From positions 1,972,336-2,036,335 of the forward strand of contig NC_019695.1 in assembly GCF_000317125.1 (NCBI RefSeq): a stretch of DNA of 64,000 nucleotides, read 5' to 3'. The position numbers and the translations under genes are program-made. This DNA comes from Chroococcidiopsis thermalis PCC 7203. Lineage in GTDB: Bacteria; Cyanobacteriota; Cyanobacteriia; Cyanobacteriales; Chroococcidiopsidaceae. Below the pieces are notes generated by a model. The model made no database searches and was not told where the DNA came from. It saw only the letters and a list, made by a program, of their open reading frames with translations. Shown piece after piece: positions 54,709-57,073 of the stretch. The stretch's first letter is position 1. Each line of letters begins with the position of its first letter.

Positions 54709-55242
54709 TTATGAAAATAGCCCACCAAAAACGTTCTTGATGATAGCTATATTTGTTAGCACGAAGTAGGCAAACACCGCGCCACCAACGCCTCCAATCA
54801 AGAAGCCACTAATATAGTTGTTCCAGCTTTCTGGTGATTTGAAAGTAGAAGGAACTTGACCACCAGTGGTAGTAGTAGCAACAGGTTGAGGTGGATTGCT
54901 AGCAGAATACAAAGCCATAGTAGCAGTCATGATTGCCACCATACCTAAAGTACTGATCAATCCAGCAATGTTGGCAACATCTGTATCGCGTAACGGACCT
55001 AGCTTAGTAAAGGGTCCGAGTACCCAATAGCCATGTGCCATCCCAACTTCCAAACCTCGCCGCATGTCGGTAATACCTGGGCGATAGGCGGGTAAGTTAT
55101 TAATAAACCACTTCACCAAGCCGGAAGAATTTACTGGTGTTTCTAAGTTACTATTCTGAGGATCGCGCCCAGCAGGAAAGACAACTTCTTGATTTCTAGG
55201 ATCGCCGGGTCTATTTTTAGATGCATCTATTGCTTGCGCCAT
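54709..55242 (-). CDS. psaL: Photosystem I reaction centre subunit XI
   Basis: 177-residue thylakoid membrane protein that forms the PSI oligomer contact. Signature YRPGITDMRRGLEVGMAHGYWVLGPFTKLGPLRD (~53-85), three transmembrane segments, C-terminal IIKNVFGG. The C-terminal third has a long loop (SASNPPQPVATTTTGGQVP) before the last helix. Located after psaF-psaJ-psaJ on the same strand. In Chroococcidiopsis-type cyanobacteria the psaF-psaJ-psaL linkage was associated with tetrameric PSI. Start fixed by GGAG just before the ATG. Confidence 0.98.
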   Translation of the reverse strand: MAQAIDASKNRPGDPRNQEVVFPAGRDPQNSNLETPVNSSGLVKWFINNLPAYRPGITDMRRGLEVGMAHGYWVLGPFTKLGPLRDTDVANIAGLISTLGMVAIMTATMALYSASNPPQPVATTTTGGQVPSTFKSPESWNNYISGFLIGGVGGAVFAYFVLTNIAIIKNVFGGLFS

Positions 55243-55628
55243 ATTCTCCGTATGATATCAATAAGGTCGTGGCATCATTTTAGGTGAATAATTGTAGCCA
55301 AATATCAATTTAGACAGAGAAGTTAAAAAAAATTAATTTAGCGATCGCCGCCATATAGCAAGCGGCAAACACGCGAGTTTTCACTCTGTTTGCGTGGCGC
55401 AAAACTATTTCTTTTTGCGTTGTGCAAAACTACTTCTTTTTGCGTTGTGCAAAACTATTTTTTTTATGTAAAATCTACCAATCGCGCGATCGCTTATGCT
55501 GTCATTGCAATTTTAATACTCAATATTGAGACTTATAATATTGGGCTATCTCTAGATCTTATTATGTGTAGCGCTACATGCTTAAATTTCAGACTCTAGC
55601 TAGATGTGAGAAACTAATTAGTTTTAGC
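55243..55628 (-). promoter_or_regulatory. psaL upstream region with palindromes and 25-bp tandem repeats
   Basis: 386 bases between psaJ (copy 2) and psaL. Minus-strand order: palindrome TGTAGCGCTACA (55567-55578), palindrome CTCAATATTGAG (55520-55531), triplicate 25-bp repeat (55389-55463), then ~145 bases to the psaL ATG. The size suggests psaL has its own promoter here rather than relying only on psaF. No gene or HIP-type heptamer block. Confidence 0.55.
55389..55463. repeat. Three tandem 25-bp dyad repeats upstream of psaL
   Basis: Units begin at 55389, 55414 and 55439. Each begins TTTGCGTTGTGCAAA (first copy TTTGCGTGGCGCAAA), a dyad, followed by ACTATTTCTT-type sequence. Exact 25-base period. 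Could be protein-binding operators or hairpins in the RNA. Confidence 0.8.
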
Positions 55629-55784
55629 TCACGGCATTGGGTGAAAAAGTAAGTCAGGAAAAAAGTAGTTAAAAATTGCCCAAGTCGTGAAAGCCACAGA
55701 TACAGCAACCACAGCCAGCACTGGAGCTAAGGAAAGATACCTCTGAAGATAGTGTTTTTGTTCGTTCTCGTTCTGTTTTTGCAT
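55629..55784 (-). CDS. psaJ: Photosystem I subunit IX, second copy (PsaJ2)
   Basis: 51 residues. Starts MQKQNENEQKHYLQRYLSLAP, one membrane helix (VLAVVAVSVAFTTWAIFNYFF) and the conserved end [11 protein letters not shown]. Seven residues longer at the N-terminus than copy 1. The helix Glu that binds a chlorophyll in the Thermosynechococcus structure is Ile here (I37); the C-terminal His (H48) is kept. GGGAG 11 bases before the ATG. Confidence 0.93.
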   Translation of the reverse strand: MQKQNENEQKHYLQRYLSLAPVLAVVAVSVAFTTWAIFNYFFPDLLFHPMP

Positions 55785-56005
55785 GAATTTTGGTCTCCCG
55801 ACCAGTGTAATGATTTGCTAAAGCATGAAACGCGCTATGCACTTAATTGATAGTAATTTGCGAGTTTCAAACCGCCATCATCCGCTTGGTCGATCGACCG
55901 TCAGGCTGTTAAGAACCAGAGGGTAGAGAACAGAACGAAAAAAGAGTAGCAACGATCGCAATTCTCTCCGATCTATCCCCTCACCTCTAGCTCAAACACC
56001 CCTAC

Positions 56006-56140
56006 TTATGGCAAGGGATGGAAGAGAAGATCGGGGAAGAAGTAGTTAAACACAATTAACCACACAGCTGTTTCAGCCAGCCATGCAAATAGCAAAACTG
56101 GTGCGAGAGAAAGATATTGCAGAAAATATTTTTGTTGCAT
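56006..56140 (-). CDS. psaJ: Photosystem I subunit IX, first copy (PsaJ1)
   Basis: 44-residue, single-helix PSI protein. [16 protein letters not shown] then a membrane helix and [14 protein letters not shown]. Adjacent to psaF (41 bases) as usual. The helix Glu that ligands a chlorophyll in other PsaJ is Val (V30); the ligand His (H41) is kept. GGGAG ten bases upstream of the ATG. A diverged second copy follows 221 bases downstream. Confidence 0.94.
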
Positions 56141-56180: not shown

Positions 56181-56684
56181 TTAGCGCGGAGAAATGGGGA
56201 TTTCTTCGTCTTTAGCAGTGAGTTCGCCTGAGAGCAACTCTTTCACGGCGGCTAGGGGCCAAGCAAACGCTGACACCATGCTCTGAAATGCTAAGGGAAC
56301 ATCAATGATGACTTCTTTGATTTCGGTTTCACTAGCATACTTTTTCTTGGTGGCTTGCAGATAGGCACGCCCCGCCCAGCCGATCTGACCGGCAATGTAG
56401 AGAAACATAATGCTAGGAATTAAAAAATCGCCAGCGCGATCGAGACGACCATCAACAACCAGGTGGGGTAGACCTTCAGGACCACACATTGCTTGAGCGT
56501 ACCGCTCAAACCGCTTTTCACCCGATTGCGGATCGGCAGTTGTATTGCGGGCTGCTTGTGCCCGTTGAACAAATGCAGGAGAGTCACTGCAACGTACTAA
56601 ATTAACTTGCTGTGCTTGAGCTGGTGGAGCAAATGTAAACCACAGTCCACCAATAACTAAGATCAGCGCAAACAATCGACGCAT
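56181..56684 (-). CDS. psaF: Photosystem I reaction centre subunit III
   Basis: 167 residues, plastocyanin/cytochrome c6 docking subunit on the lumen side. Signal peptide [18 protein letters not shown]; mature chain [23 protein letters not shown], the lumenal Cys pair C32 and C66-type ([15 protein letters not shown]) and a C-terminal membrane helix. AAGGA before the ATG. First gene of psaF-psaJ-psaJ-psaL. Confidence 0.97.
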
Positions 56685-57073
56685 GGAATTGTTTCCTTTT
56701 GTTACAAAACAAAAAGTTTATTTTACAAAATGAATCAGTTTGTACAGTATGTTTGCACGCACTTGGAAGCAATCATACTCTCGCGCGCGATCCTAGTAAA
56801 GTTAGAGCAAATCAAAGTTTAAGCTACTTAATATAGGGAGTAGGGAGCAGTTATCAGTTATCAGTAACCAGTTGTCAGGGAGACAAGGGGGGCAAGGGGG
56901 ACAAGGGGGACAAGGGGGACAAGGTTGCTGAGGGAGCAAGACAAGTCGCAGGTCGCAAGTCGCAAGTCGCAATTAATTCACCATACCCCACACCCTACAC
57001 CCCACACCCTACACCCCACACCCCACACCCCACACCCCACACCCTACACCCCACACCCCACACCCCTCCGACA
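56685..57073. other. Repeat-filled gap between psaF and tsaD
   Basis: About 390 bases between divergent genes. First 150 bases hold the psaF promoter region; 56840-57066 is repeat: CAGTTAT heptamers, ACAAGGGGG nonamers (56879-56922), a CTGAGGGAG unit, GTCGCAA heptamers (56944-56971) and CACACCC heptamers (56985-57066), reaching seven bases from the tsaD ATG. So the tsaD leader is entirely repeat. Confidence 0.65.
56879..57066. repeat. Stacked nonamer and heptamer repeats before tsaD
   Basis: Nonamers ACAAGGGGG (56879-56922), heptamers GTCGCAA (56944-56971), heptamers CACACCC (56985-57066). Longest uninterrupted heptamer run in the window (about twelve units). Confidence 0.8.

Follow-up and report, generated by a model that had tools for sequence, protein, structure and literature searches.

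The question raised by this locus is why a single gene cluster of photosystem I (PSI) should hold two genes for the small subunit PsaJ, and whether their products differ in what they bring to the complex. The window, the whole stretch of 64,000 nucleotides from Chroococcidiopsis thermalis PCC 7203 that was analysed, carries psaF, psaJ copy 1, psaJ copy 2 and psaL in this order on the minus strand.

The psaF-psaJ-psaJ-psaL cluster

The upstream gene encodes PsaF1 (56181..56684, 167 aa, PF02507 E 5.6e-46). Copy 1 (J1; 56006..56140, 44 aa, PF01701 E 7.1e-20) lies 40 nt and copy 2 (J2; 55629..55784, 51 aa, PF01701 E 9.4e-12) 396 nt 3' of psaF, with a spacer of 221 nt (55785..56005) between them; copy 2 has the longer, hydrophilic N-terminus. 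PsaL1 (54709..55242, 177 aa, PF02605 E 1.7e-61) is encoded downstream. Both psaJ frames are intact and score 71.6 (copy 1) and 45.7 bits (copy 2) against PF01701, for which the curated cut-off is 22.4. These scores, with the family matches of psaF and psaL, mean that the pair is not a chance match, and Pfam and gene order confirm the two PsaJ genes of 44 and 51 residues after psaF that had been recognised in a sequence-only reading. The suspicion in that reading that annotation might have missed them is probably wrong. PsaL1 is Chro_1824 and PsaF1 is Chro_1827 (PMC8827656), and exactly two tags fit between, so that the tandem genes are probably annotated and, judged from the flanking tags, would be Chro_1825 and Chro_1826. 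We found nothing in the open-access literature on the two psaJ genes or on these two tags.

The genome holds a third PsaJ (G000:C1:2507602), absent from the sequence-only reading, which adjoins psaF2 away from the tandem locus. It is the far-red PsaJ2, the far-red pair PsaF2/PsaJ2 being Chro_2236/2235 (PMC8827656). The marks of FaRLiP PsaJ2, a C-terminal insertion with Tyr40 and linkage to psaF2, are present in this third gene and absent from both tandem copies.

Chlorophyll ligands and the loss of Glu28

The chlorophyll-coordinating residues of PsaJ in T. elongatus are Thr22, Glu28 and His39 (PMC7002129); residues are numbered here after T. elongatus PsaJ, by alignment. Copy 1 keeps Thr22 and His39, with Val (its own residue 30) in place of Glu28. 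Copy 2 keeps only His39, with Ala (own residue 31) for Thr22 and Ile (own residue 37) for Glu28. Tyr replaces Arg31 in both. The set of ligands is thus T/V/H in copy 1 and A/I/H in copy 2, and neither has the canonical three. The Val and Ile at the Glu position and the conserved His agree with what was first noted at this locus; that copy 2 also lacks Thr22 is an addition, as this third ligand had been overlooked. Canonical PsaJ (T. elongatus 1JB0, Anabaena 6JEO) shares with both copies the family, the operon position, the C-terminal FPDLLFHP and His39, but there Glu28 and Arg31 are present, as is Thr22 in most cases.

The best solved-structure match to both copies is chain J of the PSI tetramer of Chroococcidiopsis TS-821 (7qco_J, PDB 7QCO). 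It has Val28 and Tyr31, keeps Thr22 and His39 and is of the copy 1 type, which is thus represented by a chain of this solved PSI. Its aligned part is identical to PsaJ of a relative (G067) with a single psaJ, where no copy 2 partner is known. The TS-821 model, at 3.72 Å, contains 88–91 chlorophylls per monomer and its authors state that all known chlorophylls were placed (PMC8760143); the count in T. elongatus is 96 (PMC7940658), a difference which, allowing for the resolution, speaks for the pigment loss proposed below. FaRLiP PsaJ2, a paralog in the same genome, has also lost Thr22 and Glu28, but it carries a YGTYF insertion and has lost FHP, neither of which applies to the tandem copies. 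The far-red PSI structure, where PsaJ2 lacks Thr22 and Glu28 and its His is displaced, shows no chlorophyll at any of the three PsaJ sites (PMC7002129), which makes pigment loss plausible for PSI with the tandem copies, though only by analogy.

The missing Glu28 had been put forward as a special feature of the pair. This does not hold: Glu28 is absent from psaJ in all 19 genomes of the window's family and the loss recurs elsewhere. That every PsaJ of the Chroococcidiopsis group might carry Val had been named, jointly with one copy being silent, as a finding that would weaken the isoform idea; its first half holds if Val is widened to Val, Ile or Leu, one of which stands there throughout. Alignment with PsaJ of tetrameric PSI had been suggested as a check, and since TS-821 also has Val28, the trait is already in a solved structure. 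Searched with a degenerate DNA pattern of the Glu28 type of PsaJ, 314 of the 391 genomes of the order gave a match, some matches being background, and in the window's family none lay inside psaJ. Operonic PsaJ without Glu28 also occurs in G011, G039, G020, G087, G026, G002, G115, G304, G357, G362 and G390. Among 134 unique PsaJ segments, a sample biased toward relatives of copy 2, Glu28 is present in 63 and absent in 71; 62 have both Glu28 and Arg31, 71 have neither, one has Glu28 only and none Arg31 only. On a psaF and tsaD tree about 2.9 of 3 independent contrasts agree on the joint loss, too few for significance. Judged by sequence, the absence of Glu28 is a lineage trait. The idea of Glu28 as a fixed ligand needs correction, as the residue is gone together with Arg31 across whole lineages, one of them with a solved tetramer.

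Two associations of the loss were considered and given up. As a mark of duplication it was rejected, for the whole family and several other lineages lack Glu28. psaL lies downstream of 31/31 operonic genes without Glu28 versus 34/84 with it (far-red genes left out), but these reduce to three independent pairs, with psaL differing in about one, and a tie to psaF-psaJ-psaL linkage was dropped.

Some individual cases stand out on the trees and at the ligand positions. PsaJ of Prochlorococcus AG-402-O21 (L104) has Val28 and Tyr31, apparently a separate loss. In crown Nostocaceae (L134, L182, L091 and others) Glu28 PsaJ is nested among relatives without Glu28 on the operon tree, a pattern that regain of the residue or replacement of the gene may explain. 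At the psaF loci L053, L051, L054 and L074 (G162, G233, G227 and Gloeocapsa) PsaJ lacks Thr22, Glu28 and His39 and ends in FPDILMFPNP. No other PsaJ was found in G162 (99% complete), G227 or G233, whose PSI may thus carry a PsaJ without any known chlorophyll ligand. L051, L054 and L074 have a tandem psaL pair downstream of psaJ.

Two subfamilies and their retention

We define a copy-2-type subfamily by Ala or Ser at 22 and a residue other than Glu at 28. With the three diagnostic columns removed it still forms a single clade (support 91, 48 unique sequences), with copy 2 inside and copy 1 outside; copy 1 falls together with the lone PsaJ of the related genera g2 and g4 and with some Nostocaceae (support 91). 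Only 36 columns are usable, so the deeper branching order is unreliable. A recent local duplication was rejected, as the copies fall in different subfamilies. No description of the copy-2 type as a second type of PsaJ was found in the open-access papers searched.

Outside the family, copy-2-type genes are present in 16 of 372 sampled genomes, nearly all of which hold another psaJ; one further gene, in G372, has an in-frame stop. Most of these loci have neither psaF nor psaL nearby and their neighbourhoods vary, Tolypothrix campylonemoides being an exception, with its copy-2-type gene within a psaF-psaL locus. In a set of 24 unlinked loci, one of them from Prochlorococcus, a DUF4383 cluster and a short-chain dehydrogenase cluster each occur as neighbours at 7, and the neighbours are otherwise mixed. 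The DUF4383-cluster gene lies near psaJ in L066, L067, L069, L070, L075, L080 and L081, the dehydrogenase in other or the same loci; among the host cyanobacteria are several that are terrestrial or subaerial, a possible link to stress. Microseira wollei and relatives (L082, L023, L029, L015) also carry a psaJ pair behind psaF, and its second member has Val28 and lacks Arg31, but there the first copy is canonical, with Glu28, and the second has Gln22; this pairing is separate from that in the window.

A locus tree built from psaF, psaL, tsaD and gmk at these loci splits the family in three: g1 (this genus), g2 with g4 (100/100) and g3 with g5, g6 and g7 (87/87). The AU test does not separate the placements of g1 relative to the other two groups (p 0.35 and 0.26). 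g1 has both copies, g2 and g4 the copy 1 type only, and g3, g5, g6 and g7 the copy 2 type only. Each single-copy relative gives one psaJ match, several of these genomes being near-complete, and no remnant of the missing copy is recognisable in them. As sister genera keep only one type or only the other, each can probably serve alone.

Redundant pair or interchangeable isoforms

On sequence grounds, either an ancestral pair was lost differently in the sister groups or copy 2 spread by transfer; under both histories one type by itself would suffice. If the pair is ancestral, it may be a redundant leftover of which the genus has yet to lose one member, both doing the same job with no isoform switch. 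Reciprocal single retention in sister clades is the pattern expected of neutral loss of redundant copies, and the distance from psaF to psaL, 907–942 nt with two copies versus 457–613 nt in single-copy relatives, points the same way. Among three genomes of the genus, however, 3–7 nucleotide changes in copy 2 leave the protein unaltered, and 4–7 in copy 1 alter one amino acid at most; the numbers are small, but both copies are apparently under purifying selection. Nor are the copies equivalent in sequence, with only 21 of 39 core positions identical and a known ligand present in one of them alone; we regard a mere leftover as rather unlikely. About equally doubtful is a horizontal origin, in which a mobile, Nostocaceae-like accessory PsaJ came to lie next to the resident copy 1 and took its place in g3, g5, g6 and g7, a history that would be compatible with two isoforms. 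The scattered extra genes of this type outside the family and the Tolypothrix locus speak for it, whereas within the family copy 2 sits at the same place in g1 and all four copy-2-only genera, two losses from an ancestral pair are an equally simple account, and a protein as short as PsaJ does not resolve the direction.

That copy 2 is a pseudogene or is not expressed seems very improbable. Simple scans found no promoter-like site in the spacer before it, and in the region fewer such sites than in shuffles, which would fit a silent gene and leaves independent regulation of copy 2 unsupported. Yet the intact frame is preceded by a ribosome-binding-like GGGAG, the protein is identical in the three genomes, and 10 related genomes have yielded no PsaJ other than this type. 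The proteome of C. thermalis PCC 7203 reports PsaF1 and PsaL1; its main text names PsaJ once, for PsaJ2, which went undetected for want of suitable tryptic peptides (PMC8827656). Copy 1 (about 5305 Da) is predicted to meet this difficulty too, as trypsin would release from it a single hydrophobic peptide of 40 residues; from copy 2 (about 6015 Da before N-terminal processing) the small peptides expected are only QNENEQK and HYLQR.

The separate subfamilies and the apparent purifying selection on each copy bear out the earlier view of two genuinely different isoforms. We favour, with more confidence than doubt, two interchangeable visible-light isoforms, for which about two (copy 1) and about one (copy 2) bound chlorophylls are predicted in place of the usual three. 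The locus is an ordinary psaF-psaJ-psaL cluster of visible-light PSI, but encodes PsaJ of two old subfamilies. Each copy is a one-helix subunit expected next to PsaF on the periphery of PSI, and either can probably fill the single PsaJ site. With two ligands kept in copy 1 and one in copy 2, the number of peripheral chlorophylls along the PsaF/PsaJ edge would fall stepwise from canonical PSI to PSI with copy 1 and then copy 2. Two points count against this prediction of pigment number: water or a backbone group can hold a chlorophyll whose ligand is gone, and all known chlorophylls were placed in the TS-821 model according to its authors. If both isoforms are made and built into PSI, different PSI forms are possible, and cells could adjust the antenna edge by choosing between them. 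Far-red acclimation is a known case of isoforms among PSI subunits; for this pair we infer a role as regulated isoforms.

New here are the copy 2 subfamily and its additional loss of Thr22, the way sister genera have kept one type or the other, and the finding that Glu28 and Arg31 are missing together. A wider proposal, which we put forward tentatively and hold to be improbable as a whole, is that the copy-2 type is an unrecognised second visible-light PsaJ, swapped into PSI perhaps under stress and removing two chlorophylls of the PsaF/PsaJ edge, with a graded series of PsaJ with 3, 2, 1 and 0 ligands tuning the PSI rim. If true, a widespread second visible-light PsaJ with fewer ligands would give a new handle on how cyanobacteria set the pigment number at the edge of PSI, a possible docking site of antennae.

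The intergenic regions of the locus contain two repeats. A short tandem repeat with a unit close to TTTTTGCGTTGTGCAAAACTA lies between copy 2 and psaL (window 55395-55475) and has one unit fewer in the two other genomes of the genus; low-complexity GGGGGACAA and CACCCC repeats lie between psaF and tsaD (window 56885-57065).
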